Shown piece by piece: positions 479 through 57,440 of a stretch of DNA of 64,000 bases; positions within the stretch are counted from its first letter, which is position 1, and every line of letters begins with the position of its first letter. The notes under the pieces were generated by a model, which had not been told where the DNA came from, did no database searches, and saw only the letters and a list, made by a program, of their open reading frames with translations. Origin of the DNA: Spirochaeta thermophila DSM 6192 (GTDB lineage Bacteria > Spirochaetota > Spirochaetia > Winmispirales > Winmispiraceae); assembly GCF_000147075.1 (NCBI RefSeq), contig NC_014484.1, positions 2,001,501-2,065,500 on the forward strand, read 5' to 3'. Position numbers and translations under genes: made by a program.

Positions 479-2452
479 ATGCGAGTTCGGAACTCCCTCA
501 TCCCCCTGGTACTTCTCGTCGCAACCGCCCTCTCCTCGGCCCCCGTCACCATCGCCGTCCTCCCCGTAGAGGGCATCGGCGTACCCGAGGAACAGGCAGC
601 CGCGGTCACCGACCTCCTCTACACCACCCTCACGGCCGTCCCCCTCTTCCAGGTGGTCGAACGGGCCAGACTCGAGGAGGTACTCACCGAACAGGAGATC
701 CAGGTCTCGGGGCTCACGGGCGCCCAACAGGCCGTCCGCATCGGCAACCTCACCAACGCCCGCAAGGTCCTCATCGCCTCGCTCGCAGCCTACAAGACCT
801 CCTATGTCGAGAGCATCCTCTCCGCGAGGGTGGTCGACGTGGAGAAGGGCACGGTGGAGGCCGCCGCGAGCGTGGAACTTTCCCCCACCACCTCGGTGGA
901 AGAGGCCGCAGAGACCCTCGTCCGACGCCTCGTCGAGGCGATCCCCCTCTCCGTCACCGTGGCCGCGGTGGAAGGACGCACGGTCTACCTCTCCGCAGGC
1001 GAACAGGCCGGGCTCGTCCCGGGCCGGGTGGTCACGGTGGTGAAGACCAGGCCCATCACCGACGAGACAGGCGCCATCATCATGAGGGAAGAACGCCCCT
1101 ATGCCCGGCTCCAGGTGGAGGAGGTCCAGCCGACCGGCGCCCGCGCCCTACTGGTGGAGGCAGAGGAGGAGCCCCAGGTCGGTGATACCGTGGTGCTCGA
1201 GGACAGACCCCTCGCGGAGGGCGCACCCCGGCTCGTGGTGAAGAGCATCCCCGAGGGGGCCATGGTCTACATCGACGGCACTTTTTCGGGCAAGACCCCC
1301 CTCACCCTCAAGGGCCTGTCCCCCGGCACCCATCAGGTGGAGATACGCGCCCCGGGTTACAAACCCTATGCGGGAAAAGTCCGGCTTGCAGAGGGCCAGC
1401 AGGCGGTGATCGAGCGCGAACTCGTCGCCGAGGTACAGGTGGAAGACCTCCTCCGCATAGGCAAGCTCCCCAGGGAGAAGACCGATCCCTCCACCGCACT
1501 CACCAGAGGCATCATCCCGGGAGGCGGCCTGGTCTACGACGGCTACACCAACCTGGGCCTCATGGCAGGAGGAGCCACCCTCATCCAGGCAGCGATAAGC
1601 GGGATCTTCCTCTCCAACCTCCTCGACGATGAGTCGCCACCCGACCACGAACCCTACAACCTCATCTCCGGCATCACCCTGGGAGCCTCGGCCCTCACCC
1701 TCTACCTCTACTCCCTCATGGACGGCGCCCTCACCGCCGACGACGACTACCTCTACCCCACCTACGCCGAGCTCGTGGTCTCGGGAGACGCCCACCACGT
1801 CTTTCAGACCCAGACGGCAGACCCCAACAGCTCGCAGACCTTCAACCAAGCCATGGCCGACGGGATTTCGAACACCTCCTGGTTCTTCGTGATCGCCCTC
1901 AGGTTCAGGGCGTCCAAGTACCAGTTCGGCCTCGAGATCGACGCCTCACAGGAGGAGGTGATGATGGGGTTCTCCTCCGCCTACCTCCTCCCCCTCTCGG
2001 AAGACCTCTCGCTCGGGGCGCAGGTGACCTTCAAGGGCAACTTCACCGACCCCTCCGACGTGGACCTTTCCCAGACCGACCCCTCCGAGCTCGCCCCCTC
2101 ACCCCCGGGCGGGATCACGGCCATCGGCGCACTCCTCGCCCTCTCCTCCCCTCACGTGGAACTCGACCTCTTCCTCTCGCCCTACGCGGTGGGCACGTGC
2201 TACGGTGTGTTCCACAACCCCTCCTGGAGCACGTGGACCTACAACGAGACGCGCTTCCTCCCCTACGGGTACGGCGGTTCGGTGGGCCTCAGTCTCTTCC
2301 CCTCACTCCGCGCCGGCATCCACCTCTGGGCCGAGGCCTACTCCTTCACACGGGGAGAGGAGACCCCTGTGGAAGGCTCAGAGAACCCCTCGTATGTGGA
2401 CGGGCTGCGATTCATACGAGGAGGAGCGGGGCTCGTGTACCGCTTCATGTGA
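479..2452 (+). CDS. Exported CsgG-like / PEGA-domain protein with C-terminal barrel-like region
   Basis: 657 residues from the ATG at 479, chosen because AGAAGGAGG sits just upstream and a signal peptide follows at once (MRVRNSLIPLVLLVATALSSA). Residues about 20-150 resemble the CsgG/LpoB-like fold (AVLPVEG opening, then VERARLEEVLTEQEI). About residues 250-320 are a PEGA domain (IPEGAMVYIDG, GTHQVEIRAPGYKPY), a surface or cell-wall associated beta module. The remaining 330 residues contain a Gly-rich hydrophobic stretch and then alternating aromatic/polar strands ending in YRF-type residues, as in outer-membrane barrels. It is probably an envelope assembly or anchoring protein; the exact role is unknown. 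It is a single gene with its own promoter and no close partner. Confidence 0.8.
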   Translation: MRVRNSLIPLVLLVATALSSAPVTIAVLPVEGIGVPEEQAAAVTDLLYTTLTAVPLFQVVERARLEEVLTEQEIQVSGLTGAQQAVRIGNLTNARKVLIASLAAYKTSYVESILSARVVDVEKGTVEAAASVELSPTTSVEEAAETLVRRLVEAIPLSVTVAAVEGRTVYLSAGEQAGLVPGRVVTVVKTRPITDETGAIIMREERPYARLQVEEVQPTGARALLVEAEEEPQVGDTVVLEDRPLAEGAPRLVVKSIPEGAMVYIDGTFSGKTPLTLKGLSPGTHQVEIRAPGYKPYAGKVRLAEGQQAVIERELVAEVQVEDLLRIGKLPREKTDPSTALTRGIIPGGGLVYDGYTNLGLMAGGATLIQAAISGIFLSNLLDDESPPDHEPYNLISGITLGASALTLYLYSLMDGALTADDDYLYPTYAELVVSGDAHHVFQTQTADPNSSQTFNQAMADGISNTSWFFVIALRFRASKYQFGLEIDASQEEVMMGFSSAYLLPLSEDLSLGAQVTFKGNFTDPSDVDLSQTDPSELAPSPPGGITAIGALLALSSPHVELDLFLSPYAVGTCYGVFHNPSWSTWTYNETRFLPYGYGGSVGLSLFPSLRAGIHLWAEAYSFTRGEETPVEGSENPSYVDGLRFIRGGAGLVYRFM

Positions 2453-2647
2453 GGCCCCGTAGCGAAGTCTCTCGATAATCTTTGCGCGAAACACCGGCAC
2501 CGCGGGATGGATGCGCACCTCGCCCATGCTGATATATCAGGAAAACTCGAAATTTTCCCCTTTTACTTGAAAAAAATACCGCATTGTGCCACCCTGTAAG
2601 GGTAATCACATGTATCCATCTTCATTTCATACGCGGAGGTTTCCCCC

Positions 2648-3982
2648 ATGGTTATCATGACCCTCAACTGCGGAAGCTCCTCTGTGAAGTACCAGATCTA
2701 CGACTGGGACAAGAAGCGGAGGCTCGCATCCGGTATCGTGGAACGCGTCACCCAGAAGGGATCCGTGATCGTCCACGAGGCCGCTGGAAAACCCGAGTAC
2801 AAGAAGGAACAGGATTGTCCCACCCACAGAGAGGCCATCCAGCTCATCATCGAGGCCGTCCTCCACCCCGAGTACGGGGCCATCTCCGACCTCTCGGAGA
2901 TCAAGGCCGTAGGCCACAGGGTGGTGCACGGAGGAGAGAAGTTCGCCCAGTCGGTGGTCATCACCGACGAAGTGATCGAGGTCTTCAAGAGCATCGCCCA
3001 CCTCGCTCCACTCCACAACCCGGCCAACATCCAGGGGATCGAGGCCGCCCGCCAGCTCCTGCCCGACGTGCCGCACTGCGCCATCATGGACACCGCCTGG
3101 CACCAGACCATGCCCGACCACTCCTACCTCTACGCCCTCCCCTACGAGTGGTACGAGAAGTACGGGGTACGGCGCTACGGGTTCCACGGCACCTCGTTCC
3201 TCTACACCTCACGGAGGGCGGCGGTGCTCCTCGGCAAGAAGCCCTCCGAGACCAACCTCATCATCGCCCACATCGGGAACGGGGCGAGCATCAATGCGGT
3301 GAAGAACGGGTGCTCCTACGACACCTCGATGGGCCTCACCCCGCTCGAAGGACTCGTGATGGGCACCCGCTGCGGCGACATAGACCCCGCCATTCCCTTC
3401 TACATCATGCAGCAGACCGGGCTCTCCCCCAAGGAAGTGGAGTCCATCCTCAACAAGAAGAGCGGCGTCCTCGGGATCACCGGGAAGTGGGTCGACCGCA
3501 GGGACGTGGAGATCGCGGCGGAACAGGGGGACAAGCGCGCGATCCTCTGCCAGACCATCGAGGGGTACCGGATCAAGAAGTACATCGGGGCCTACATGGC
3601 AGCCCTCGGCCGGGTGGACGCCATCGTCTTCACCGCAGGCGTGGGTGAGAAGGGGCCCATCATACGACAGATCGCCCTCGAAGGCCTCGAGGCCCTGGGG
3701 GTGAAGCTCGACCCGGAGCGCAACCGCGTCTCCATGACCCGTAACGCCGAGACCATCATCTCGACCGATGATTCGCCGGTGAAGGTCTTTGTCATCCCCA
3801 CCGACGAGGAGATGGTGATGACCGAGGACACCTACGCCCTCATGAACGGCACATACGATATCCACACCCGGTTCACCTACACCTTCGAGAGCCCCTCCTA
3901 CAGGAACGTGGAACGGCTCGAAAAGCTTCCCCGCGACATGGAGAAGTGGCCGGGTCTCGAGAAGATCATCCTCAACCCGTGA
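2648..3982 (+). CDS. ackA: Acetate kinase
   Basis: 444 residues. Converts acetyl phosphate plus ADP to acetate plus ATP, the substrate-level phosphorylation step of acetate-forming fermentation. Acetokinase signatures are all present: [11 protein letters not shown] at residues 5-15, VGHRVVHGG, the YGFHGTS segment carrying the active-site histidine, HIGNGAS and GTRCGDIDP. The start at 2648 follows GGAGG at 2634-2638; a second ATG three codons later is possible. The protein is about 40 residues longer than the usual 400, with an extra C-terminal tail ([12 protein letters not shown] to KIILNP). It is alone in its transcription unit: no phosphotransacetylase gene lies next to it. The 195-bp gap upstream is AT-richer than its surroundings and has a TTGAAA at 2567-2572, but I could not place a convincing -10 box. 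Confidence 0.96.
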
Positions 3983-4001
3983 AGCGGGAGATCGGACACG
4001 C

Positions 4002-4039
4002 GAGGAACGGGGAGCCCTACAGCTCCCCGTTCCTCTTTC
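4002..4039. terminator. Strong hairpin terminator between convergent ackA and the DJ-1 gene
   Basis: A perfect 14-bp stem, GAGGAACGGGGAGC (4002-4015) with its complement at 4022-4035, and a 6-nt loop, followed by TTTC. It lies 20 nt after the ackA stop and 10 nt before the end of the convergent gene, so it can serve ackA directly. Confidence 0.85.
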
Positions 4040-4048
4040 ATCGACCGA

Positions 4049-4597
4049 CTAGAGGATGAGGGTGGCCTTGCCCACCTTCTGGTAAGCCTCTTCCCCGGCG
4101 AAGGCGCGCACCAGCTCGAGCCCGAACAGGCCTGCGGTCCCCACGCCCCTGCTCGTGATGAGGTTGCCGTCTTTCACCACAGGAGAGGGCTCCCACGTAC
4201 CGCCCTCCACCTCCTTCTCCATTCCGGGATAGCAGGTGAAGCGCCTTCCTTCGAGGAGCCCCGCCTTGCCCAGCACCACCGCGGGAGCGGCACAGATCGC
4301 CCCGATGGTCTTTCCCGCCTTCATGCAGTGGGAGAGCCAGGCCCGCACCGCGTCCGAGGCGGCGAGGTTGCTCGAGCCCGGCATACCCCCCGGCAGCACC
4401 ATGCCGTCGAAGTCCTCGGGCGAAAGATCCGAGAGGAGAGCGTCGGTGACGATGCGCACGCCGCGCGAACCGGTCACCTCCTTGCCGGTGACGCCGGCCA
4501 CCACCACTTCCACGCCGGCGCGCCTCAGCAGGTCGATGGGGGTCACGGCCTCCACATCCTCGAATCCATCGGCGAGACATACTGCGACTCGTGCCAT
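4049..4597 (-). CDS. DJ-1/PfpI (YajL-like) family protein
   Basis: 182 residues. DJ-1 superfamily members are small glutamine-amidotransferase-like proteins linked to glyoxalase/deglycase or thiol-stress functions. The nucleophile-elbow cysteine is in GAICAAPAV (about residue 105) and the conserved N-terminal glutamate is in DGFEDVEAVTP. The oxyanion region LPGGMPGSSNLAAS is also intact. The start is the ATG at 4597, preceded by AAGGAGG; the longer frame upstream has no such site. It lies downstream of priA on the same strand (63-nt gap), so it may be read from the priA operon or from its own promoter. The substrate cannot be told from sequence. Confidence 0.9.
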   Translation of the reverse strand: MARVAVCLADGFEDVEAVTPIDLLRRAGVEVVVAGVTGKEVTGSRGVRIVTDALLSDLSPEDFDGMVLPGGMPGSSNLAASDAVRAWLSHCMKAGKTIGAICAAPAVVLGKAGLLEGRRFTCYPGMEKEVEGGTWEPSPVVKDGNLITSRGVGTAGLFGLELVRAFAGEEAYQKVGKATLIL

Positions 4598-4660
4598 ACA
4601 AGCCTCCTTGAGAGCGTGTTCTCTATCCAAGGGTACTCCGAAACGGGGTGATCGGCTACC

Positions 4661-6604
4661 TCATACCACCTGCACCGGATCCACGTCCACCTCGAGGTGC
4701 ACGCCCGAGGAAGGCCTGAAGAGGGGGAGGGTGCGGGCGAGGAGGCCGTGCATGGGGGCGAGTGAGGACGAGCGGAGGAAGAGGTGGTACCGATAGTTGC
4801 CGGCGATCCTCTCCATGGGGCAGGGGGCGGGGCCCAGGAGCTCGACACCCTCGGGCAGGTCGGCCGAAAGGAGGGAGGCGAATCCCCCGGCGTCCCTCTC
4901 CACCTTGCGCTCGTCCCTTCCCCGGAAGACAAGGCGGACGAGTCTCGAGAAGGGAGGGAAGAGTGTCTCCTTTCGCACCTCGAGTTCCTCCTCGTAGAAG
5001 CGACGGAGATCGTGCTCCCGGGCACACACGATGCCAGGATGATCGGGCAGATACGTCTGGATGACGACCCGACCACCCGGCATGAACCTGCCCGCACGGC
5101 CCGCGACCTGAACGAGGAGGGAGAAGACCCGTTCGGCGGCCCGGAAGTCGGGCATGTGCAACCCGGTATCGGCCAACACCACCCCCACGAGCCCGAGGCG
5201 GGGAAAGTTGAAGCCCTTGGCGATCATCTGCGTCCCGAGGAGTACGTCCACCTGGCCGGATTCCATCTCCTCGAGTACGCGCTCGAGTACGCCTTTCTTC
5301 CGGGCCGTGTCCGTGTCGAGTCGGGCGATGCGGTAGAAGGGAAAGGTTTCCCTGAGTTGCTTCTCCACCTGCTCGGTGCCCGGCCCGCTGTAGCGTACGT
5401 CCACGCTCCCGCACGAGGGACACACGTCGATGGGTCTGGTCCGGTAGCCGCAGTAGTGGCAGACCATCACCTCTTCGGCCCTGTGGTACGTGAGGGGGAG
5501 CGAGCAATGGCGGCAGGTCATCTCGAACCCGCAGGCCCTGCATCCCACGTAGTGGGCGAATCCCCGCCTGTTGAGGAAGAGGATGGTCTGCTTTCCCTCT
5601 TTCTTGGTACGCTCGATCTCCCTGAGGAGGGGTTTGGAGAGCGGGCCGGGATGGTCCTTGAGGGAGACGATCTCTATACGGGGGGGCTCTCCCCCCGCCA
5701 CACGCTCGGGAAGGTGGAAGAAGGGAAGCCGCCCTGTATGCATGAGATGGTAGGCTTCGAGCGAGGGGGTGGCGCTCCCCATGAGGAGGAGGGCGCCCTC
5801 GGTGCGGGCGCGGTGCATGGCCACCTGGCGGGCGTGGTACCGGGGGGTGGCACCCGACTTGTAGCTCGACTCGTGCTCCTCGTCGAGCACGATGAGCCCG
5901 AGGTCGCCGATGGGTGCGAAGACCGCGCTCCTGGCACCTATGACGAAGCGCACCTCGCCACGGACGATCCTCCGCCACTCGGCGAGCCGTTGTGAGGCGG
6001 TGAGGCGAGAATGGAGCACCGCCACGTCCTGGCCGAACCGGGCGCGGATGGTCTCCACCACCTGGCGGGTGAGGGCGATCTCGGGCACCAGGTAGAGCAC
6101 CCCCTTCCCTCGCTCGAGCATATGCTCGGCGACCGTGAGGTATACCTCGGTCTTGCCCGATCCGGTGACGCCCCAGAGGTAGAACATGGGGTGGGTGCAG
6201 GAGAGCACGGCCTCCACTGCCTCCCGTTGGGCCGGAGAGAGCCGGTGCCGCCGGTACGCCGCAGGTTCATCATACGGCACGGGCGCCTCGCGTTGCACCC
6301 TCCCGCCGGGGATCATGGCCGAGAGGGCCTCCCCCAGTCCGCATAGGTAGTAGGAACTCACCCATTGCGCAAGAGAGAGGACACGCCCGTCGAACAGGGG
6401 TTCTTCATCGAGCACCTTCTCCACGGGCTTGAGGTCCTCGGGTGCCACACCGGAAGGAGGATTCCCCCTCACCCCTACCACGTACCCGGTGAGCACCCGC
6501 CCCCTCACGGGCGCCCGTACCCGCACGCCCACGGGGACCTCTCCCTCCACCCGGTACGTGAGGGGTTCACGGAGGGGAAGATTGAAGGCCACGTCCACCC
6601 ACAT
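4661..6604 (-). CDS. priA: Primosomal protein N' (replication restart helicase PriA)
   Basis: 647 residues, a superfamily-2 helicase that reloads the replisome at stalled forks. The N-terminal DNA-binding domain is followed by the Walker A motif in WGVTGSGKTEVY (about residue 160), the DEEH box, and helicase motifs through LGTQMIAKGFNFPRLGLVGV. The zinc-binding cysteines appear as CRACG, CRHC, CHYCG and CPSCG. I chose the ATG at 6604: it has GAGGTGAGG immediately upstream and starts 4 nt after the uracil-DNA glycosylase stop, whereas the ATG 6 codons earlier overlaps that gene without a ribosome site. It is last in the long operon from 14.1 kb. It is shorter than E. coli PriA (732) but has all motifs. 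Confidence 0.96.
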   Translation of the reverse strand: MWVDVAFNLPLREPLTYRVEGEVPVGVRVRAPVRGRVLTGYVVGVRGNPPSGVAPEDLKPVEKVLDEEPLFDGRVLSLAQWVSSYYLCGLGEALSAMIPGGRVQREAPVPYDEPAAYRRHRLSPAQREAVEAVLSCTHPMFYLWGVTGSGKTEVYLTVAEHMLERGKGVLYLVPEIALTRQVVETIRARFGQDVAVLHSRLTASQRLAEWRRIVRGEVRFVIGARSAVFAPIGDLGLIVLDEEHESSYKSGATPRYHARQVAMHRARTEGALLLMGSATPSLEAYHLMHTGRLPFFHLPERVAGGEPPRIEIVSLKDHPGPLSKPLLREIERTKKEGKQTILFLNRRGFAHYVGCRACGFEMTCRHCSLPLTYHRAEEVMVCHYCGYRTRPIDVCPSCGSVDVRYSGPGTEQVEKQLRETFPFYRIARLDTDTARKKGVLERVLEEMESGQVDVLLGTQMIAKGFNFPRLGLVGVVLADTGLHMPDFRAAERVFSLLVQVAGRAGRFMPGGRVVIQTYLPDHPGIVCAREHDLRRFYEEELEVRKETLFPPFSRLVRLVFRGRDERKVERDAGGFASLLSADLPEGVELLGPAPCPMERIAGNYRYHLFLRSSSLAPMHGLLARTLPLFRPSSGVHLEVDVDPVQVV

Positions 6605-44776: not shown

Positions 44777-47700
44777 CTACTGCTTCGGGATCTCGAGGAT
44801 GAGTTCGACCTCCCCTCTGCTGAGCCTGGTGGCACGCGCGATCTCCTCCACGCTCCATCCCTGCCGTGCGAGCTTGATGACCGTCTCCCGCTCCGAGAGC
44901 GTGGGAGCGCCGCGATCCTTCCTCCGTTTCTCCTCCCCCTCGAGCAGGGTGCCCAGGAGCTTCACCTGCTCCTCCGCCTTCTTCGCCACCTCCTCGAGGC
45001 GGGTCTCGGTCCGGGCGAGCCACTCCCTCGCCTTCTGGAGACGCCCGGCCCGTTCCTCCATCTCGTCAAGCAGCGCATCCAGGGTGCCGAGCTTCTCCAC
45101 GGCCTCCCTTATCTGCCCCTCCTCCGACTCCACCCGTTCCACCTGGATCCTGATCTCCTCCACCCGCTCCGGGAGGGCGTTCAAGACCTCGCGGTAGCCT
45201 TCCAGCTCTTCCTCTATCTTCTGGATCATCTGGAAGTTGCGGTCCACGGCCTCGGTGGTCACCTCGAGCACCTGTCTCCGCTTCTCGAGGCGCTCGAAGG
45301 CCCGCTCCACCTGGCCCTGGGCCTCTTCGATGGCCCTGAGTCGGGCCTGGATGGCCTGGATCTCGTCGTGGCTGTCGGTGATCTGCTGGAGCTTCAGATC
45401 CACCGCCTGGGAGAGGCCGAGAAGCCGTTTGAAGTCGTCCTCGAGGCTGTCTATGCGTCTCCGCTCGGAGAGGAACCGCGCGAGCCTGCCCGACACCTCT
45501 TCCCCGAGCTTCTTCACCTGCTGGAACTGCCCCTCCATGCTCCTCGTCTCCTTGAGGTGCGCCTCCACCCTGGAGATCTCCTCCTTGAGGAGGGCCAGGT
45601 TGCGCTCGAGCACCTCCTTGAGGTGATCGGCCCGGTCGAATATCCTCGTCTGTTCGATGAAGGCCTTCTGACGACGCTCTATCTCGGTGAGCGTGGCAGA
45701 CAACCGTGCACCGTCGTCCTCGAGCTTGGCGAACAGGCGCTGCTGGAGGGTGGTGAACTGGTTCCTGGTATCCACCAGGAAGTGCTTGAACTCCCGTGTC
45801 CTGTCCTCCACCTCCTGGAGCACCCCCTCACGATACTGCTCGAAGCGATCCTGGAGGGCACCGTAGCGCTCCGCGAAGGCCTGGAATGCCTCCTCCGTGA
45901 CCCGATCGAGGCGCCCGGAGAGGGTGGCCATCCCCTCCTCCACCTCCTCCAGGCGGGCGACGAGGGCCTCCCTCCGCTCCTCGGCCGCATCGAGGACCTG
46001 CTGGCGCTCCGCATCGAAGGTCTCCCTGATGATCTGTAGGCTCTCCCCCATCTGGGATCTGAGCAGATCGATCTGGCCGGAGAGGTCGCCCCGCGCAGAG
46101 GAGAGCTTTGCCGCAAGATCCGACTGCCAACGGGTCAAGTCCTCCCTCGCGGCCTGGAGCACGGCCTCCACCGAGGTCTCGTGCTGCCTGAGACGTTCCC
46201 GCACCTCGTCGAGACGCTGATCCACGTCGGCCCGGTGGGAGAGGATCTGCTCCTCCACCTTCTGCGCATGGGCGGCGAGCTCCTGGGCCACCGAAGCCTC
46301 GGCCTGCCGTCGCAGCTCCTCGATCCTCGCTGCGATCGTCTCCTGAAAGCCCTTGAGGGTCTCCTCCTGGGCGTCGAGCCTCTCCCTCAGGCTCTGTTCG
46401 AACTGGCCCACCTGGTCTTGAAAGCGCTCCAGCTGGGAGTAGAGCCTGGTCTGGAGTTCCGAGAGCCTGGCACGCATCTGCCCGGTATGGGTCTCCTCTA
46501 GCCTGGCCCGTTCCTCCTCCTGCCGAGCTCCCACCTCCACGAGCTTCCGCTCGAACTCCTCCTCCCATGCAGCGACCCTCGCTCCCAACTCCTCGCCGCG
46601 GGCCTCGAGGTCCTTGAAGAACCCCTCCTCGAAGGCCGTGAGCCTCGAAGAGATGCGGTCGTACGCCTCCTGTTTGAGGGCCTCCACTTCCTGCTGGAGG
46701 GTTCCGAGTTCGGCGCGAACCTCCTCCATCCGTGCGAACACCGCCTCCCTGTCCCTCTCGCCGGCCTCCTTGAGCCCCTGGTAGAAGCGCTCCTGTTCCT
46801 GGCGGATACGTTCCCTGGTGGCCTCCAGCATCCTGGAAAGGGCATCCTCAAGATCCTGGATCTGGGCGCTCACGCCCTCGACCCTGCGCATCCGGTACTC
46901 CAGGTCACCCGCATACTCGGCGAGCTGGGCCTCCAAGGCGGCGAGGACCTCCTGCTCCCTCTGCACCCCCCGCTGCTCCACCGCCTTCCACATCTCATCC
47001 TGCCGCCCCTGCATCCGCTCCCTCAAGGCGCCGAGCTCGGCCTCGAGCCGCTCCTCCGCCGAGGCGAGGAGCCTGCGCACCTCGTCCGCCACCTCGCCCA
47101 CCCGCATCCCCAGGGCCGCCTCCTGTTCCTCCACCTGCCGCACCCGCCCCTCGAGCCGCGCTTCCACCTCACCCAGGCGCTCCTCGTGCGTCCGCACGAA
47201 GGCCACCACCCTACCCTCGAAGTCCCCCAGCTGGCCCTCCACACGCTCCTCCGCCCCGAGGAGCCGCTCCTGCACCTCGGCCTCCCAGCGGGCGATCCGT
47301 TCGTCGAGCTGTCCGAGCTGGCCCTGGAGACGCTCCTGGAAGGCTTCCACCTCCCGGCCGAACTCCCGGACCATACGCTCCACCTCGCTCCTCACCGTCC
47401 CCACCATCTCCCGTCCGCGCTCCTCCACGGCCGAAGCCGCTCCCGAAAGCTCCTGCTCGAGCCGAACGAGGGCCTGCTCGAGATCCTCGCGCACCTGCGC
47501 CATCCTTCCACGGCCCTCCTCCTCGAAGTTCCTCAGCCGCTCATCCACCCCTTCCACACGCCGTACCACCCCCTCCTGCCACTCCGTGACCCGCCCCTCC
47601 AACGCCGCCACTTCATCCCGAAGCCCTGCCTCGTACTCCTTCATCCGCTCCCTCACCCCCCCCATCGTCGCATCGAGCTCCCCCCTCACCCGCTCGAGCC

Positions 47701-49846
47701 AGTCCCTGCTCTCCTGGACGAACCCGTCCACATCGGCGAGAAGGCCCTCCCGGACCTCCTCGAGCCTCGCCTCGAGCTCGGTCCTGAGCCCACCCAACCT
47801 CGAGTCCTGCAGCTCCTCGAGCCGCGCCACACGCCCCTCCATCGCAGCCACACGCTCCCCCACCCCCTGCTCCAAGGCCTCCATGCGGAGGGAGAGCCGC
47901 TCCTCCCAGGACGCCGCCTCATCCAGCACCCGCTCCAGCTCCTTCTCCACCTGCTGCTCACGCTGCTGGAGCACGGCACGGATCTTCGCGAAACCGTGTT
48001 CCACCATATCCCTCGCCTCGACCCTCCGCTTCTCCAACAGCGCACGCACCTCGTCCCTGAGCGACTCCCCCTCCTCCGCCGCGAATCCCTTGAGCTCCCT
48101 GAACCGCTCCTCCAACACCCCTACGACCCGCTCCTGTTCCTCCCTGAGCACCTCCTGCGCCCGTCCCAGCTCCTCCCTGAGGCGTGCCGCCTCATCCTGG
48201 AAGGCCCGCTCCAATGCCCCGAACGTCTCCCGCTGCCGGGCCTCGAACTCGCCGGCCTGCGCAGTGAGCCGCGAGATCCGCTCCTCGAGGGAGGAGGTGT
48301 AGTCCTCCATCCTCGCGGTCCACCCGTCCACCTGCTCCTTGAGTTCGGAGAAGACCTCCTCCACCCTTCCCCTCGCCTGATCCAGTTCCTCCTTGAGGTC
48401 CTCGAGCTGCTGCACCGCATCGGCCCGCAGGCTCCCCGTCTGGGCCTCCACGTCCTGGTGCACCCTGAGGAGGATCCCCTCCACCTCCTCCCGCACCCGC
48501 TCCCTCGCTTCCTCGACCCGCTCCCCGAGCTCCTGCTCCAGCCGGAACACCCCGGCCTCCACCTCCTCCGCCTTGCCCTGCACCATCCGCTCCACCTCCT
48601 GGAGCTCCTCGTCCACCCGGTTCGCCCACGTCTCCACCTCGGTCAGCAGCTCGGAGGTCTTGCGCTCCAACGACGTACGCACCTCGGCGAGGGCCTCGCC
48701 GAGCGCCGCCTCACGACCCGCGAGCCACTCCCTGATCTGGGCATCCTTCGCCTCCAGGAGGCTCCTCGCCTCCCCCTCCCAGAGCCCCACATCGGCCCGC
48801 ACACGGGAGAGCTGCTCCTCCACCCCGCTCCGCACCTCCTCCACACGACCCGCCACCTCGCCGGAGAAACGCTCCAGGGAGGAGAGGAGCCCCTCCTCCC
48901 GCTTCTTCACGAGCGCCACCACCCTGGCGAAGGCCTGATCCTCCAGTGCGGCCGCACGCTTCGCGGCATCCTCCAGGGCCTTCCCATGCTCGGCCGCCAC
49001 GGCCCTGCATCGCTCCCGCAGCCCCTCCACGAGCCCATCCACCCCTTCCCTCTCCCGGGCGAGACGCCGTTCGAGGTCCTCGAGGAGCGTCTCCACCTGG
49101 CCGGTGAGCTCCTCCACACGCCCTCGGATCCGCTCCAGCACACCCTCCCCCTCCTGCTCGAGGGCCGCCTTGAGCTCGCCGAACCGCTCCTTGAGGAGGG
49201 CCTCGGCCTCGACCCCCAGCGTCCGCAGTTTCTCGCCCTGGCGCTCCACGGCCGCAGCGAGATCCTCCTGCCGCTCCCGAGCCGCCTCCACCTCGCGGTG
49301 GAGGTCCTCCACCTCCTTCCTCGCCTGCAACTGCACCTCGGCCTTCACCTGGGACAACTGCTCACCGTTGAGCTGGGCGAACCGCTTGAGCATCCCGGGC
49401 AGGGCCTTCTCCACCTTCTCCAGCTGGGCGGCCACCACCCGGACCCGCTTGCCCACCCGATCGATGAACTCCGATTCGTTCCTGATCCGGGAGAGGTTCT
49501 CCTCGGCCCGAGCCGTCATATCCACCAGCTCGGCGAGGACCCTGTCGTATTCCTGGATCCGCTTCTCGAGCTCACCCACCTCCCTGTCACGCTCACGGAT
49601 CTGACCGAGCCGCTCCTCCATGTAGGAGAGCATCTCGCGGAGGGTATTCTGATAGGTGTCGATTTCTATGGTGATGTCGCGGAGCCTCGCCGTACGCTCC
49701 TGGACGAGGGCGTCGAGATCCTCCTTCACCCTGTCCGCATACCTCCTCACCTTCTCGAGGCTCCGGTTGTTCCTGTCGAGCTGACGGAAGACGACGAGCG
49801 CCGCGGCCACCAGGCCGAGGATGACAATGTCCATCACGGTAATCAT
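44777..49846 (-). CDS. Giant membrane-anchored coiled-coil protein (SpiroCoCo family)
   Basis: 1689 residues. The ATG at 49846 has GGGAGGGG upstream; an ATG four codons earlier lacks it. One N-terminal membrane helix (DIVILGLVAAALVVF, residues 6-20) is followed by about 1600 residues of almost unbroken Glu/Arg/Leu/Val coiled coil with no Walker motifs, so it is not an SMC ATPase. The last 45 residues (LSERETVIKLARQGWSVEEIARATRLSRGEVELILEIP) are a helix-turn-helix. This matches the architecture annotated as SpiroCoCo in spirochaetes; the function is not known to me, presumably structural along the membrane. It shares its strand with grpE and the HAD gene. Confidence 0.92.
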   Translation of the reverse strand: MITVMDIVILGLVAAALVVFRQLDRNNRSLEKVRRYADRVKEDLDALVQERTARLRDITIEIDTYQNTLREMLSYMEERLGQIRERDREVGELEKRIQEYDRVLAELVDMTARAEENLSRIRNESEFIDRVGKRVRVVAAQLEKVEKALPGMLKRFAQLNGEQLSQVKAEVQLQARKEVEDLHREVEAARERQEDLAAAVERQGEKLRTLGVEAEALLKERFGELKAALEQEGEGVLERIRGRVEELTGQVETLLEDLERRLAREREGVDGLVEGLRERCRAVAAEHGKALEDAAKRAAALEDQAFARVVALVKKREEGLLSSLERFSGEVAGRVEEVRSGVEEQLSRVRADVGLWEGEARSLLEAKDAQIREWLAGREAALGEALAEVRTSLERKTSELLTEVETWANRVDEELQEVERMVQGKAEEVEAGVFRLEQELGERVEEARERVREEVEGILLRVHQDVEAQTGSLRADAVQQLEDLKEELDQARGRVEEVFSELKEQVDGWTARMEDYTSSLEERISRLTAQAGEFEARQRETFGALERAFQDEAARLREELGRAQEVLREEQERVVGVLEERFRELKGFAAEEGESLRDEVRALLEKRRVEARDMVEHGFAKIRAVLQQREQQVEKELERVLDEAASWEERLSLRMEALEQGVGERVAAMEGRVARLEELQDSRLGGLRTELEARLEEVREGLLADVDGFVQESRDWLERVRGELDATMGGVRERMKEYEAGLRDEVAALEGRVTEWQEGVVRRVEGVDERLRNFEEEGRGRMAQVREDLEQALVRLEQELSGAASAVEERGREMVGTVRSEVERMVREFGREVEAFQERLQGQLGQLDERIARWEAEVQERLLGAEERVEGQLGDFEGRVVAFVRTHEERLGEVEARLEGRVRQVEEQEAALGMRVGEVADEVRRLLASAEERLEAELGALRERMQGRQDEMWKAVEQRGVQREQEVLAALEAQLAEYAGDLEYRMRRVEGVSAQIQDLEDALSRMLEATRERIRQEQERFYQGLKEAGERDREAVFARMEEVRAELGTLQQEVEALKQEAYDRISSRLTAFEEGFFKDLEARGEELGARVAAWEEEFERKLVEVGARQEEERARLEETHTGQMRARLSELQTRLYSQLERFQDQVGQFEQSLRERLDAQEETLKGFQETIAARIEELRRQAEASVAQELAAHAQKVEEQILSHRADVDQRLDEVRERLRQHETSVEAVLQAAREDLTRWQSDLAAKLSSARGDLSGQIDLLRSQMGESLQIIRETFDAERQQVLDAAEERREALVARLEEVEEGMATLSGRLDRVTEEAFQAFAERYGALQDRFEQYREGVLQEVEDRTREFKHFLVDTRNQFTTLQQRLFAKLEDDGARLSATLTEIERRQKAFIEQTRIFDRADHLKEVLERNLALLKEEISRVEAHLKETRSMEGQFQQVKKLGEEVSGRLARFLSERRRIDSLEDDFKRLLGLSQAVDLKLQQITDSHDEIQAIQARLRAIEEAQGQVERAFERLEKRRQVLEVTTEAVDRNFQMIQKIEEELEGYREVLNALPERVEEIRIQVERVESEEGQIREAVEKLGTLDALLDEMEERAGRLQKAREWLARTETRLEEVAKKAEEQVKLLGTLLEGEEKRRKDRGAPTLSERETVIKLARQGWSVEEIARATRLSRGEVELILEIPKQ

Positions 49847-49865
49847 ATCCCCTCCCATACCCCCT

Positions 49866-50643: not shown

Positions 50644-51393
50644 TCAGAGCCTCGCGATGAGGCTCGCGAGATAGCCCGCCCCGAACCCGTTGTCGATGTT
50701 CACCACCGCGAGCCCCGGGGCGCAGCTCGTGAGCATGGCGAGGAGAGGCGTCATCCCCTCGAGGGCGGCGCCGTAGCCCACGCTCGTGGGCACGCCGATC
50801 ACCGGCCTGTCCACGAGGCCGGCCACCACGCCGGGAAGGGCGCCCTCCATCCCGGCCACCACCACCAGCGCACGCAAGGAGCGCATCTCCTCGAGGCGGG
50901 CGAGGAGTCGGTTGATCCCCGCCACCCCCACATCGTAGACCCGCTCCACCCCCACCCCGTAGAACTCGCAGGTGATCGCAGCCTCCTCGGCCACCGGCAC
51001 ATCCGAGGTGCCGCCGGTGACCACCCCCACACGGTGGGGGCAGGAAGGAGGCGGACTCGCCACATGGGTACAGCACCGCGCCTCGGCATGGTACACGAGC
51101 CGTGGGAACCGTTCGAGGAGAGGCCCCAGCTGGTCCTCCCTCACCCGCGAGACGAGGAGGTTCTCCCCCCGCGAGAGAAAGACCTCCACGATCTCCAGGA
51201 GGTGCTCCGTCTTCTTCCCCTCCGCGAAGACGACCTCGCCCCGACCCGTACGCACGGGCCTCGCCATGTCGAGCGTGGAGTGTCCGAGCCGTACGAAGGA
51301 GAGCTCCTCGAGCCGGGAGATCGCCTCCTCCTCGGGCACCCGCCCCTCCCGGTAGGCGGCCAGCAGACGACGCATCCGCTCACGCCGATCCAC
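50644..51393 (-). CDS. larB: LarB, pyridinium-3,5-biscarboxylate synthase
   Basis: 249 residues; carboxylates and hydrolyses nicotinic acid adenine dinucleotide, the first step to the nickel-pincer cofactor. The C-terminal half is PurE-like: VGVVTGGTSDVPVAEEAAITCEFYGV and VVVAGMEGALPGVVAGL, IGVPTSVGYGA. GTG at 51393 has GGAGGGTACCT upstream and overlaps larE by 14 nt. No larA or other recipient enzyme is in the window. Confidence 0.95.
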   Translation of the reverse strand: MDRRERMRRLLAAYREGRVPEEEAISRLEELSFVRLGHSTLDMARPVRTGRGEVVFAEGKKTEHLLEIVEVFLSRGENLLVSRVREDQLGPLLERFPRLVYHAEARCCTHVASPPPSCPHRVGVVTGGTSDVPVAEEAAITCEFYGVGVERVYDVGVAGINRLLARLEEMRSLRALVVVAGMEGALPGVVAGLVDRPVIGVPTSVGYGAALEGMTPLLAMLTSCAPGLAVVNIDNGFGAGYLASLIARL

Positions 51394-52207
51394 AGGTACC
51401 CTCCTTGACGGACATACTCCCCGTCCTGTAGCCCTCCAGATCGAGGGTCACATAGCGGTACCCGAGTTCCTTGCACCGGGCCACGATCCCCTCCCGGTCC
51501 CCGGAGGAGAGGAAACGCTCGAGGTCGTCACCCCCGAGCTCGATCCGGGCCAGCTCCCCGTGATGACGCACCCGCACCTGCCGGAAACCCGCCCTGAGGA
51601 ACAGGAGCTCGGCCTCCTCGATACGCCTGAAGAGGGCCTCGTCGACACGAACACCGTGCGGAATCCGGGTGATGAGGCACGAGTACGGCGGCTTGTCCCA
51701 GGTGGGAAGTCCGAACGCGCGGGAGAGATCCCGTATCCGTTCCTTGGTGAGACCGGCCTCCCGCAGCGGGCTCCTCACCCCCAGCTCCCTCAGGGCGCGC
51801 ATCCCCGGCCTGTCCTCCTCGGGGTCGCTCGCATTGGTGCCGTCGCACACCACCGGATACCCGTCCTCCTCCGCCATCCGCTTGATGGCCCCGAAAAGGA
51901 TCCGCTTGCACCGGTAGCACCGATCGGGAGGGTTCTCCCGGACCTCCTCGACGAACGGCACCTCGATGAGGCGGTGTGTCAGGTCGAACCGCTGCGCGAG
52001 CTCGGCCGCCTCCGCGGCCTCCCAGCGTGCCACATGGGGCGGAAGGAGGGTATAGGCCCTCACCGCATCTTTCCCGAGCACCTCCCTCGCCACCACGGCG
52101 AGGAAGGTGCTGTCCACCCCTCCAGAGAAACCGACCGCGATCCTGCCATATCCCTTGAGGACCTCCACGAGCCTATCTGCCTCTTTTTCGATAAGAGAAA
52201 GATCCAT
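51380..52207 (-). CDS. larE: LarE, sulfur-donating pincer cofactor enzyme
   Basis: 275 residues; ATP-pyrophosphatase fold with PP-loop AVGFSGGVDSTFLAVV (about residue 26). In LarE a cysteine is sacrificed to give its sulfur; the equivalent segment here is KPPYSCLITRIPHG. ATP-binding DRCYRCKRILF and VVCDGTNASD are conserved. The start is uncertain among ATGs at 52207, 52225 and 52231; 52207 has a GGGGGCGG site and fits the family N-terminus. Confidence 0.93.
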   Translation of the reverse strand: MDLSLIEKEADRLVEVLKGYGRIAVGFSGGVDSTFLAVVAREVLGKDAVRAYTLLPPHVARWEAAEAAELAQRFDLTHRLIEVPFVEEVRENPPDRCYRCKRILFGAIKRMAEEDGYPVVCDGTNASDPEEDRPGMRALRELGVRSPLREAGLTKERIRDLSRAFGLPTWDKPPYSCLITRIPHGVRVDEALFRRIEEAELLFLRAGFRQVRVRHHGELARIELGGDDLERFLSSGDREGIVARCKELGYRYVTLDLEGYRTGSMSVKEGTCGSA

Positions 52208-52244
52208 ATCCGCCCCCTGATTCATGAGCATTTCACCCCGAAAA

Positions 52245-53606
52245 TCATAGACGCCCATCCCCTTCCTGTCCATACGCGTCTGCGAGGTACCTTCCCAGGA
52301 GGGCCCTGAGCCGGGGGATGGGTATCCCGGTCCGCCGGGAGGACGCTTCCAGGTCGCGGTACTCCCACTTGACCGAGGAAGGTTCCCCCCCGAGCGAGGC
52401 CCGCTTCAATCTGAACGTGCCGTAAGGGGTCTGGACCTCCTCGAAAGAACGCTCGAGCTCCACCTTGCCCACGGTGTGGAGCCTGCACCCGAACGTGGTG
52501 GTATGCCGGAGGAGGAGATGCACCATCCTCTCGGCGAGGGCCTGATCGGCGAGGACCGAAACCTCATGGCCCGGACGCCCCCGCTTCATGATCACGGGTC
52601 GCACCACCACATCGCGGGCCCCGGCCTCGAGGAGGACATCCACCGCCCGGCTCACATCCTCGGGGAGCATGTCGTCGACCGTACAGGAGACCACCACCTG
52701 CTCCGTGCGGGCAAGCCCCTCGGAAGCCTCCCCCAGGTAGACCCTGAGCACGTTCGGTACGGAGAGCCTGCGGGTTCCCACCCCGTAGCCCACCCGCAGG
52801 GGCACGAATGCGGGCCGCTCCACGAACCGGTCCACCACCGCCGCCAGGACGGCCGCCCCCGTGGGGGTGGTGAGCTCCCTCTCCACGAGTCCCATACGCA
52901 CCGGCATACCCTTCACGATCTCCGCCGTGGCGGGTGCGGGCACGGGGAGGACGCCATGGGCGCACCTCACCCACCCCCCGCCGAGCTGCACGGGCGAGGC
53001 CCACACCTCGTCCACACCGAGGTACTCGAGCGCGAGGGCCGCCCCTACCACATCGACCAGGGCATCCTTGGCCCCCACCTCGTGGAAGTGCACCTCCTCG
53101 GGGGTGCTGCCGTGGACCTTCGCCTCGGCCTCGGCGATCGTGCGGAATATGGCCAGCGACCGTCTCTTCACCCCTTCGGACAAGCCGCTCCGTTCGATGA
53201 GCGCAGCGATCTCCCCGAACGTGCGGTGCTCGTGATGGTGGTGATGGGCAGATCCCTCCCCATGGTGGGAGCGACCTTCGTCGTGGTGGACATGGGGGGC
53301 GTGCCCATGCCCATGGGCTGCCCCTTCGGCATGGCTATGTCCCGCATGACCATGATCCTCCTCATGAGGATGCGACCCTTCGGCATCCTCCTCCACCCAC
53401 TCCTCCACGCCCCTCACCTTGATCCGTTTCCCCTTTATCCCGGCGCGTTCCTCCTCCCACACGTCGAACTCGAGCGGCTCGCCGAGTCCCAGCAGGGAGA
53501 GTCCTTCCCTCACGTATTCCACCGGAACCCCCAGGTCGACGAGCGCCCCCAGGTTCATATCCCCTGCGATACCCACACTGCAATCGTAGTAGAGAATCTT
53601 TCTCAC
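52245..53606 (-). CDS. larC: LarC, nickel-inserting cofactor enzyme, one uninterrupted frame
   Basis: 453 residues from a GTG with GGGAGGA upstream; inserts Ni into the dithiolated pincer using CTP. YYDCSVGIAGDMNLGALVDLG opens the protein; EVHFHEVGAKDALVDVVGAALAL and CTVDDMLPEDVSRAVDVLLEAGARDV follow. Residues about 78-125 form a His/Gly/Glu-rich insert with some 20 histidines, a likely nickel reservoir. In Lactobacillus plantarum larC is read through a frameshift; here it is a single frame. Confidence 0.95.
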   Translation of the reverse strand: MRKILYYDCSVGIAGDMNLGALVDLGVPVEYVREGLSLLGLGEPLEFDVWEEERAGIKGKRIKVRGVEEWVEEDAEGSHPHEEDHGHAGHSHAEGAAHGHGHAPHVHHDEGRSHHGEGSAHHHHHEHRTFGEIAALIERSGLSEGVKRRSLAIFRTIAEAEAKVHGSTPEEVHFHEVGAKDALVDVVGAALALEYLGVDEVWASPVQLGGGWVRCAHGVLPVPAPATAEIVKGMPVRMGLVERELTTPTGAAVLAAVVDRFVERPAFVPLRVGYGVGTRRLSVPNVLRVYLGEASEGLARTEQVVVSCTVDDMLPEDVSRAVDVLLEAGARDVVVRPVIMKRGRPGHEVSVLADQALAERMVHLLLRHTTTFGCRLHTVGKVELERSFEEVQTPYGTFRLKRASLGGEPSSVKWEYRDLEASSRRTGIPIPRLRALLGRYLADAYGQEGDGRL

Positions 53607-53663: not shown

Positions 53664-55736
53664 ATGAAGATTCACCGCCTGCTGTACCTTCTGGTGCTGG
53701 GGGGAGGGTTGCTCGGCGCATTGGAGGGTGAGGGGGGAATCTATCGTCTCGAACGAGAGGACCTCACGCACGGCACCTTCCTCGAAGGGAACGTGCCCTT
53801 CTACTGGGAAAGGCTCATCCAGGAACCGCCGCGTGAGGGCCCCACGCTCCTCCTCCCGGTCGACAGACCGTGGACGCGGGCCGTCAACCCGAGAACCGGT
53901 GTACCGTTCCCGGCCGCTGGGTACGCCACCTACCGGTTCCATATCATCCTCCCTCAGCACCCTCCGGAGGAACCTCTCGCCATCAGGCTCCAGAACATCA
54001 CGAGCGCCCATCGCCTCGTCCTCGGGGGAAAGACCATCCTCGAGGAAGGCCGGGTCTCGCCCGATGCCGCCCGCCATGTCGCGGGCATCCGCACCCGGAT
54101 GATCACCTTCTGGCCTCCCTCGGGGGAATTCGACCTCTGGCTCCAGGTCCAGAACGTGGAGGACCGCCTCGGAGGCCTCCAGAATCCCCCTTACCTGGGC
54201 TACGCCTCGGCCGTACGATCCTTCCACGAGCGCAAACTCATGCTCGACCTGTTCGTCTTCGGGAGTATCCTCATCATCGCCGTCTACCACCTCATCCTCT
54301 TCTTCACCCGCTCGAAGGAAAAGGAATACCTCTTCTTCGGGCTCTTCGCCTCTTCCCTCGCCCTCCGTGCCGGACTCACCGAGACACGGTTCCTCCACGA
54401 CCTCCTCTCCTTCCTCCCCTGCCCCCTCCTCATCCGGGCGGAGATCATCTCCGTCTATGTCGCGGCCGCGTCGCTGTTCCTCTACTTCCATCGGCTTTTC
54501 CCCCACGAGGAGCTACGCCCCCTCTCCGTCCTCCACTACACCGTCACCGGCGCCTTCATCCTCATGGGGGTGTTCCTTCCGTTCCGTCTCTTCACCGAAC
54601 TCCACATCTACTACGAGTACTACCTCGTCGCCTCGTGTCTGGTGTTGCTCGCCTGGCTCGTACGGGCCCTCGTCCATCGGAGGGAACAGGCCCTCCTCTT
54701 CACCATAGGCATGCTCGTCCTCACCTTCACGGTGATGAACGACGTGCTCTTCAGCATCTACCAGAGGGGGAGCGGGTACCTCTCCCAGTACGGCCTCATC
54801 GTCTTCCTCCTCGTCCAGGCCCTCATCCTCGCCCGCACGTACGCTCACGTGTACAATGCCATGAGGGAGGCCTCCTGGAAGGCCGAGACCATGGCCACCC
54901 TCTACTCCCGTTTCGTGCCGTTCACCATACTGCGCCTCCTGGGCAAGGAGGGGATGGAAGGTCTGAGAGGGGGCGAACACACCACCTGCGAGCTCTCGGT
55001 GATGGTCTGTTCGCTCATGCCCCTCGTCTCGCTCTCGGAGAAGATAGCCCCGCACCAGACGAGCGCCTTCCTCTCCTCCTACGCCCGCCAGATCATCCCC
55101 GTGGTGAAGGACCACGGCGGGATCTTCGAGTCCTTCCTGGGAGAGAAGATGACCTTCCTCTTCCCCGGCGAGCCCGAGGAAGCGGTGCAGAGCATCTTCG
55201 CCCTGTTCCGCTTCCTGCGTGAGTACAACGCGGGCCGTGCCGCCGCAGGTTACGAACCTGCAGGTCTCTCCATCGGCGCCTCCCATGGCCGGGCACTCCT
55301 CGCCATGGTCTCCGCGGGCGAGAGACTCGCCTATACCGGCATCGGGGAGGTCTTCTCCCTGGCCGCCGAGGTGGAGGGGCTCACCAGGGTGTTCGGAGCC
55401 GCGGCCCTCATCACCGACCAGCTCTTCCCCGCCCTCGCGAGGGTGGAAGAGTCCTCCTACCGGTTCCTGGGCCGGCTCCGCACCCCCCAGAGGGTGATCC
55501 CCCTCTTCGAGGTCATAGACCCTGAGGACGCGGTGAAGCGATCGACCGCGTCCATGTTCGAACGAGCGCTCTACGCCTACTGCCTGGGAGCACTGGACGA
55601 GGCCGAGAAGGGCTTCCTGGAGGTGCTCTCCCACGCACCCGAGGACAAGGCGGCGGCCTTCTACCTCAAACGCGTGCAGCTCCACACCAGGGAGGGGACC
55701 CAGCGACTCGAGAGCGGCCATCCCGAAATCCTCTGA
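53664..55736 (+). CDS. Seven-helix membrane sensor with degenerate class III cyclase domain
   Basis: 690 residues. Signal peptide (IHRLLYLLVLGGGLLGALEG), an extracytoplasmic beta-rich sensor domain (to about residue 185, 7TMR-DISM extracellular style), seven membrane helices (about 195-395, starting LDLFVFGSILIIAVYHLIL), and a cyclase-like domain (about 430-610). The domain keeps the family outline (FESFLGEKMTFLFPGEPEEAV; GLSIGASHGRALLAMVS; GEVFSLAAEVEGLT) but the two metal-binding aspartates look replaced: VMVCSLMP where FxDI is expected, and LGEK where xGD is expected. A TPR-like tail closes it. Probably a signalling protein without catalysis. Confidence 0.85.
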   Translation: MKIHRLLYLLVLGGGLLGALEGEGGIYRLEREDLTHGTFLEGNVPFYWERLIQEPPREGPTLLLPVDRPWTRAVNPRTGVPFPAAGYATYRFHIILPQHPPEEPLAIRLQNITSAHRLVLGGKTILEEGRVSPDAARHVAGIRTRMITFWPPSGEFDLWLQVQNVEDRLGGLQNPPYLGYASAVRSFHERKLMLDLFVFGSILIIAVYHLILFFTRSKEKEYLFFGLFASSLALRAGLTETRFLHDLLSFLPCPLLIRAEIISVYVAAASLFLYFHRLFPHEELRPLSVLHYTVTGAFILMGVFLPFRLFTELHIYYEYYLVASCLVLLAWLVRALVHRREQALLFTIGMLVLTFTVMNDVLFSIYQRGSGYLSQYGLIVFLLVQALILARTYAHVYNAMREASWKAETMATLYSRFVPFTILRLLGKEGMEGLRGGEHTTCELSVMVCSLMPLVSLSEKIAPHQTSAFLSSYARQIIPVVKDHGGIFESFLGEKMTFLFPGEPEEAVQSIFALFRFLREYNAGRAAAGYEPAGLSIGASHGRALLAMVSAGERLAYTGIGEVFSLAAEVEGLTRVFGAAALITDQLFPALARVEESSYRFLGRLRTPQRVIPLFEVIDPEDAVKRSTASMFERALYAYCLGALDEAEKGFLEVLSHAPEDKAAAFYLKRVQLHTREGTQRLESGHPEIL

Positions 55737-55798: not shown

Positions 55799-57151
55799 TC
55801 AGATCCGGGGGAGCGCCGAGAGTGCCTCCCTGATCTTCTCCTCGGGATACTCGTAATCCTCGAGCCTGCCCTCGAAGTACTGCTGGTAGGCCGCCATGTC
55901 GAAGTGCCCGTGACCCGATGCGTTCACCAGGATGACCCGCTCCTTCCCTTCTTCCTTCGCCGCGAGGGCCTCGTCCACGCAGGCCTTGATCGCATGGGCC
56001 GTCTCGGGCGCCACGATGAACCCCTCGGTGCGGGCGAAGAGGACCGCGGCCTCGAAGACCGCCCTCTGATGGTAGGCACGGGCCTCGACCACCCCCTCCT
56101 TCACCAGACGCGAGACGATGGGCGCCATGCCGTGATACCGCAGGCCTCCTGCATGGATGCCCGGCGGGACGAAGTCGTGCCCCAGGGTGTGCATCCTGAC
56201 GATGGGGGTCATCTTCCCCGTGTCGCCGTAGTCGTACGTATAGACGCCCTTGGTGAGGGTGGGACACGCCGAAGGCTCCACCGCCACGAGGCGCACGTCC
56301 TTCCCATGGATCTTGTCGTAGGCGAAGGGAAGGGCGATACCCCCGAAGTTCGATCCCCCACCCACACAGCCTATGACCACATCGGGATAGTCACCCGCGA
56401 GCTCGAGCTGTTTCTTGCACTCGAGGCCGATCACCGTCTGATGGAGCAGCACATGGTTGAGGACCGAACCGAGGGCGTAGTGGGTGTCCTCCCGTTCCAC
56501 CGCCTCCTCCACGGCCTCGCTTATGGCGATACCGAGGGAACCGGGCGAGTCGGGATCCTTCTCGAGGATGGCCTTGCCCACCTTGGTGCGGGGTGAGGGA
56601 CTGGGTATGCACTCGGCGCCCCACGTCTCCATCATGATGCGCCTGTAGGGCTTGCCCTCGTAGCTCACCTTCACCATGTAGACCCGCACCTCCATCCCGA
56701 AGAGCCTGCCCGCGAAGGCGAGGCTGCTCCCCCACTGGCCCGCCCCCGTCTCCGTGGTGAGCCTGGTGATCCCTTCCTTCCTGTTGTAGTAGGCCTGGGC
56801 CACCGAGGTATTGGACTTGTGGGAACCCGGAGGAGAGGCACCCTCCCACTTGAAGTAGATACGAGCCGGGGTCCCGAGGGCCTGTTCCAGCTGGTAGGCC
56901 CGGTAGAGCGGCGTGGGCCGCCAGAGGGCGAGGATCTTCCGCACTTCCTCGGGAATTTCGATCCACCGCTCGCCGCTCATCTCCTGTTCGATGAGGGCCC
57001 GGGGGAAGAGGGCGGAGAGTTCATCCGGCGCGAGCGGCTGCTTCGTGACCGGATGGAGGGGCGGGTCGAGCGGCCCGCCCGGCAGATCCGCGAGGATGTT
57101 GTACCAGTGCGAGGGAAGATCCTTTTCACTGAGCAGGATTTTTCTTTGCAT
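55799..57151 (-). CDS. trpB: Tryptophan synthase beta chain, TrpB2 type
   Basis: 450 residues; PLP enzyme joining indole and serine. The PLP lysine is in [17 protein letters not shown]; the phosphate-binding loop is [23 protein letters not shown] is the carboxylate loop. Length, the N-terminal [16 protein letters not shown] and [12 protein letters not shown] mark the TrpB2 subgroup, common in archaea and thermophiles and not tied to a TrpA subunit. No trpA or other trp genes are here. It follows trpR with a 26-nt overlap and has GGAGGAAG before its ATG. Confidence 0.95.
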
Positions 57152-57440
57152 GCGCTTCCTCCATACGTTCGAGCAGTTCCCACGTGACCGAGGAAGGATT
57201 CTTGAGGATCTTCGCTCCCCTCGTCACCTTGCACAGGCTCACCCCCAGACGGTCGGCCACCTCGCGCTGGGTGTACCCGTGCGCGAGGAGCACCATGAGC
57301 TCCCACCTGAGGGCGAAGCGGGCGCGTTCGGCAGGGGTGAAGAGCTCATCGAAGAAACGGGCGAGCTTCTCCGGGTCATCGACCGAGGCGATGGCCTCCA
57401 CGAGCTCGTTGTAGTAGTTGCGTACATCGTTTTTTCCCAT
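57126..57440 (-). CDS. trpR: TrpR-family transcriptional regulator
   Basis: 104 residues, all helical. The helix-turn-helix is [25 protein letters not shown] (about residues 58-82), and [26 protein letters not shown] is the typical Trp repressor core. It overlaps trpB2, so a tryptophan-responsive, self-regulated two-gene operon is likely. The ATG lies 6 nt after a -10 box and lacks a Shine-Dalgarno. Confidence 0.92.

Follow-up and report, generated by a model that had tools for sequence, protein, structure and literature searches.

Comparison of a solitary spirochaete receptor with its relatives suggests, as the somewhat more probable reading, that spirochaetes independently invented an asymmetric membrane cyclase. 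It would consist of tandem 7TM genes, one encoding a domain that keeps the metal Asp (Me-only) and the other a domain that keeps the Asn/Arg residues (NR-only) together with a KGK motif, and two genomes carry both in a single frame. On the same reading the family repeatedly gave rise to fully dead, non-catalytic signalling receptors, arranged in tandem in one family and represented in another by the solitary protein described here. The gene for this 690-residue 7TMR-DISM receptor, with its dead class III cyclase domain, occupies positions 53664..55736 on the forward strand of the window (the whole 64,000-nucleotide stretch of Spirochaeta thermophila DSM 6192 DNA that was analysed, from a genome of one contig and 2,472,645 bases), and is an intact open reading frame with no internal stop.

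Successive features, all on the forward strand, confirmed the layout of a membrane receptor. A signal-peptide-like hydrophobic N-terminus (residues 1-22, 53664..53729; hydropathy peak 3-21, model helix 2-17) is followed by a putative periplasmic sensor domain (residues 26-180, 53739..54203), beta-rich as judged from the strands of an AlphaFold2 model with pLDDT blocks of 88-94 from residue 31 onward, and without any Pfam match, in a search with the whole chain, that would assign it to DISMED1 or DISMED2. Next comes a 7TMR-DISM_7TM membrane domain (residues 193-390, 54240..54833; PF07695, E 3.1e-23), which bears out the 7TMR-DISM-like sensor proposed in the preliminary description; the membrane part as a whole (residues 181-415) comprised seven long helices in the model and six peaks by a simple hydropathy scan. 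An RFVP coupler (residues 416-419, 54909..54920), in which F417, V418 and P419 were invariant across 13 aligned sequences, and F417 and P419 across 38, connects the last membrane helix to the catalytically dead class III cyclase-fold domain (residues 439-618, 54978..55517), identified by phmmer and by structural match. The chain ends in a weakly TPR-like tail of three model helices (residues 623-677, 55530..55694), for which the match to TPR_2 fell short of the cut-off (E 0.13).

When compared with solved cyclases by phmmer, the whole chain gave a value of 7.5e-8 and its best stretch 1.5e-7 (6fht). The AlphaFold2 model, built from 38 aligned sequences (mean pLDDT 87.7) and compared with PDB structures mainly over residues 418-662, had OaPAC 8qfg (VIA) as its best structural match (Z 21.1, rmsd 2.9 over 199 residues). 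Class III cyclases, some of them photoactivated, made up the top matches, with Z values of 17-21 over the best 50 rows (CyaB 19.3, CyaC and Cya2 19.0), and Foldseek concurred, Rv1625c being one of its matches. The Pfam cyclase model PF00211 (Guanylate_cyc) did not match the protein at E<=1, a whole-genome search with the same model at E<=0.001 recovered four other genes and not this one, and an NCBIfam search returned no cyclase call. By its predicted fold and its descent the cytoplasmic domain belongs with the cyclases, as the class III outline recognised earlier from the sequence had indicated; unlike CyaB, CyaC, Cya2, OaPAC and Rv1625c, it has lost all six canonical catalytic residues.

The catalytic columns, placed by alignment to active relatives and labelled according to the roles established for class III cyclases, were altered throughout. 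The metal-1 and metal-2 Asp columns read Ser450 (55011..55013) and Glu494 (55143..55145), the specificity Lys and Asp columns Ser490 (55131..55133) and Glu562 (55347..55349), and the transition-state Asn and Arg columns Ser565 (55356..55358) and Glu569 (55368..55370). With all six positions changed, the KGK motif was also gone, the corresponding region (55473..55496, located by alignment and by regular expression over relatives) reading RLRTPQRV; in mammalian C2 this motif holds phosphate. Chance or misalignment is an unlikely cause, because 156 of the 216 distinct cyclase domains treated by the same alignment approach retained both metal Asp, Asn and Arg, and because an ortholog in a second genus (G002) had the same six losses. 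Of the 55 columns that did not vary among five active relatives, a hand count found 24 retained in the window protein and 25 in that ortholog, the six catalytic columns being among those lost from both, and coupler and fold residues among those retained. The preliminary description had placed Ser and Glu at the two metal-ligand positions, and the alignment to cyclases that it called for found no intact Asp at either; its confinement of the loss to these Asp residues was too narrow, as the Lys, Asp, Asn, Arg and KGK positions, which it missed, have been lost too.

These losses bear directly on two alternative functions. One, that the non-catalytic domain serves as a nucleotide sensor, binding its ligand in the old cleft as an allosteric signal, accords with the intact fold of the predicted model, but is improbable because the two Asp for metal, the Lys and Asp for base and the KGK for phosphate are gone from the window protein and, likewise, from the ortholog; the earlier suggestion that the domain may bind nucleotide is thereby disfavoured. 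The other, that the protein is an enzyme with unusual chemistry in which Glu494 and nearby acids hold a metal, or which catalyses some other reaction, draws on the Glu common to the metal-2 column of both proteins, yet appears very unlikely, given that the Asn and Arg columns read Ser and Glu here and Pro and Ile in the ortholog, and that the base-recognition residues differ as well.

The gene has nevertheless been retained. Comparison with the sister species G001, at 98% identity, gave a dN/dS of 0.151 for the whole gene; for the cyclase core it was 0.111. The number of changes behind these values was small, 26 synonymous and 12 nonsynonymous. Over their aligned lengths, three co-resident cyclase genes had values of 0.061-0.191, and the fourth, L043, gave 0.252, its sensor half having diverged strongly between the two species. 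In this last, active receptor (L043 1692-3800 versus L044 1664-3766) the cyclase half was near-identical, but identity in the sensor half, which takes up the first 400 columns, was only 34-76%. The ortholog in G002, which belongs to the same family, shares 44% identity and is syntenic: as in the window, it converges with a pyridoxal-phosphate enzyme gene (TrpB-like; 55799..57151, reverse strand, PF00291) and a TrpR-family gene (57126..57440, reverse strand, PF01371), at 76% and 69% identity, respectively. That the gene is a decaying pseudogene could be argued from the long cyclase branch of the ortholog (1.28 changes per column in the tree), but is scarcely credible given the frame kept open in three genomes, the dN/dS of 0.15 and the synteny conserved across genera. 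On these comparisons the protein is a pseudo-enzyme kept by selection, its catalytic residues lost, and not a decaying one; alignment, fold model, ortholog and dN/dS together support the pseudo-cyclase on a 7TMR-DISM sensor originally proposed.

None of the examined neighbours was a cyclase gene. A reverse-strand cluster at 50644-53606 of the window, resembling larC, larE and larB, matched nickel insertion (PF01969), a NAD-synthase-like fold and an AIR-carboxylase-like protein; a functional link to the divergent nickel-insertion gene was considered and rejected, there being no match within 18 kb around the G002 ortholog. Further along the same strand (44777-49858) lies a gene for a 1693-residue protein with repeated apolipoprotein-type (coiled-coil-like) matches.

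Matches above 400 bits to the window protein were confined to G000, G001 and G002 among the 394 genomes of the class searched, G002 having two, the dead ortholog and an active sibling. A quick maximum-likelihood tree was built from 139 domains, with SH-aLRT support only and 40 of its 128 inner branches weak; in it the window type and the dead ortholog formed one clade (SH-aLRT 100), the sister of which was an active G002 cyclase (90). The active sibling (L035) is a full-length homologue with 36% identity to the window protein and the same coupler and tail, and retains all six catalytic residues where the window protein has none; this type was not found in the window genome or the sister species. 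Between the two dead proteins, identity was 42% in the cyclase domain, 44% in the membrane part and 51% in the tail, whereas three comparisons among active relatives gave 46-53% for the cyclase domain and 20-25% for the membrane part, from which it follows that constraint on the dead cyclase domain has relaxed. The tail was considered as a special output and rejected, since its identity was not high once the overall closeness of the pair was allowed for.

Evidence for the asymmetric cyclase came from 78 classified loci, 77 of them from spirochaete family f24, which were selected by match to a pair member and aligned to a profile rebuilt from the same loci. Me-only and NR-only domains were adjacent in 43 of these, always on one strand; as L134 and L305 are one locus, the distinct complementary loci number 42, comprising 41 in f24 (L164 6860-10860, L223 and L228, for example, and 38 more) and L166 from another family (G056). 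The other 35 loci comprised 15 with one full domain, 13 dead-dead, two single dead, two single Me-only, two single NR-only and one NR-only plus dead. Some losses were incomplete, the second metal Asp being retained in 5/43 NR-only domains and Arg in 2/43 Me-only domains; the doubly counted locus had a gap at the first metal Asp. One of the two open reading frames was shorter (473-570 aa) at L226, L227 and L237. A 7TM domain was identified by Pfam in both members of the split pair L164 and in both single-frame proteins (vide infra), and is probably present in the other pair loci as well, judging by their long homologous matches.

A KGK-type motif, which is independent of the class assignment, came after most NR-only (43 of 49) and full (72 of 85) domains, but after few Me-only (2 of 46) and no dead ones (0 of 35; rows not fully de-duplicated), a distribution that agrees with the two classes. 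In the tree, which includes pair loci up to L262 only, most f24 Me-only members fell in a cluster of 27 rows, of which 26 were Me-only (SH-aLRT 94), and an f24 NR-only cluster of 27 rows contained 23 NR-only, three partial and one dead (SH-aLRT 98). Over the whole tree the labels changed three times for Me-only and seven times for NR-only, the extra changes arising partly from L166, L051 and L171 and from dead or partial rows lying within the clades. L260 and one L262 member, both on very long branches, meet in the tree. Our reading is that the f24 pairs may be assigned one origin and the G056 pair another. At L166 (7565-18237, reverse strand) there are four consecutive cyclase-like genes, an Me-only and an NR-only one, each with HAMP, and then two dead ones; PF07695 had no match there at E<=0.01, and we read the locus as a separate origin of the complementary pattern. 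Adjacent complementary genes would imply that their products form mixed dimers. The window protein itself was considered as half of such a pair and rejected, both halves of the catalytic set having been lost and the examined neighbours not being cyclases.

In two genomes both complementary halves were present in one frame, as a 7TM-cyclase-7TM-cyclase array with two PF07695 and two PF00211 stretches: L239 (G328; 1944-5885, forward strand, 1314 aa) and L240 (G288; 2028-5843, reverse strand, 1272 aa). Between the first-half KGK and the putative membrane re-entry segment of L240 there was no ATG, GTG or TTG, except for a TTG inside the segment itself; L239 has an in-frame ATG ahead of its second signal-like segment, and separate translation of its halves is therefore possible. 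Both may possibly be single chains at the protein level. Among the matches listed from the 274 f24 genomes searched, there were no other frames of at least 1272 aa.

A domain census reduced 311 matched domains to 216 distinct ones, namely 156 full, 26 Me-only, 25 NR-only, six dead and three partial, with loci L004, L015, L016 and L035 excluded, matches shorter than 100 aa dropped and the G001 copy standing in for the window protein. Apart from the loci fetched around pairs, non-full domains were limited to the window clade (two) and the singletons L051 and L171. The 13 dead-dead loci were L262, L307, L313, L314, L316-L323 and L325. Pairwise comparison among five of them gave dN/dS values of 0.10-0.24 for the gene as a whole and of 0.045-0.218 for the cyclase region alone, several of the underlying dS values being above 1 and saturated. 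With ratios well below 1, these five are under purifying selection, and dead cyclase domains have thus been selectively kept more than once.

What such a receptor does can be approached through the known active site of class III cyclases, in which, as a figure legend of PMC4886424 also states, one chain supplies the metal Asp and the other chain the remaining residues; the complementary pairs fit this division. By this logic the window protein should be able neither to work alone nor to complete any partner. We tentatively favour, at somewhat short of even chances, the view that the dead receptor has been retained for signalling and that its output is a mixed dimer which silences a catalytically competent membrane cyclase in its own cell. 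Ligand binding outside would move the membrane helices, the RFVP coupler would pass this movement to the cyclase fold, and the output would be protein contact through dimerisation of that fold, not cAMP. The partner would be an active co-resident membrane cyclase, for example of the L043 type, which is present in all three genomes of the family (L043, L044 and L036 in G000, G001 and G002, respectively). Since an active site needs metal Asp and Asn/Arg from separate chains, the mixed dimer would have no complete one and the partner would be silenced, much as RetS acts on GacS.

In keeping with such a role, the identity between the pair members in G025 is 27%, close to that of the window protein with its closest active paralog (24%), and dead cyclase-fold receptors have been retained elsewhere, as in the 13 dead-dead tandem pairs. 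Against silencing stand the lack of an adjacent partner gene, the failure to find an L035-type sibling in the window genome or sister species, the relaxed constraint on the dead domain and the few changes behind its dN/dS. Nearly as likely is a dead, retained homodimer, the fold of which transmits the signal via its surface or the helical tail to a non-cyclase partner; the retained coupler and tail, the absence of an adjacent active cyclase and the failure to find a close active sibling in two of the three genomes are in its favour, but the tail identity of the dead pair is not special beside that of the membrane part. The earlier proposal of relay through dimerisation thus remains plausible.

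Among 7TMR-DISM receptors (RetS, LadS, NicD and RgsP), the 7TMR-DISM_7TM domain likewise stands behind an N-terminal beta domain, but the output is a kinase, GGDEF or EAL domain instead of a class III cyclase fold. RetS, a 7TMR-DISM kinase, is described in part of PMC4866733 as blocking GacS autophosphorylation, and RgsP in part of PMC6107284 as a 7TMR-DISM receptor with an inactive nucleotide-cyclase-type domain, GGDEF. Rv2561 and MUL_2491, for which a passage of PMC4886424 reports a class III-like fold with non-conserved metal Asp, are described there as cytosolic and without membrane domains, unlike the window protein, which is a membrane receptor. The passages available from PMC2447327 mention one pseudogene and do not otherwise touch on inactive cyclases, and no paper on such pseudo-cyclases was apparent among the open-licence papers surveyed, those on spirochaetes included. 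That selection has retained a receptor devoid of catalytic residues suggests that signalling through the class III fold need not involve cAMP synthesis.

The C1 and C2 halves of mammalian membrane adenylyl cyclases divide the metal Asp and Asn/Arg between them. This TM1-C1-TM2-C2 arrangement resembles only the paired and single-frame spirochaete relatives; it has a hexahelical anchor, whereas the window protein has a 7TMR-DISM membrane domain and keeps neither half. The fungal NeoR rhodopsin-cyclases, given in part of PMC8815786 as natural heterodimeric cyclase receptors, are eukaryotic and have rhodopsin sensors, unlike the spirochaete receptors. In the relevant passages of a 2022 review (PMC9552081), a fused dimeric class III cyclase is stated to be unknown in bacteria, bacterial members of the class to homodimerise, and the advantage of fusion to be an open question; natural heterodimeric or fused bacterial class III cyclases were not apparent among the open-licence papers surveyed, again with those on spirochaetes included. 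The paired genes provide a bacterial setting in which to ask why membrane cyclases are asymmetric and fused in animals, and with both split and single-frame forms among related species the advantage of fusion would become testable.

Open reading frames of ~1070-1105 aa were considered as further fusions and rejected on the two examined, L038 (2866-6072, reverse strand) and L039 (2356-5670, reverse strand), which carry a histidine kinase and a receiver between the membrane part and the cyclase. Each is thus a single protein combining 7TM, kinase, receiver and class III cyclase domains, and the cyclase domains of both retained their catalytic residues.
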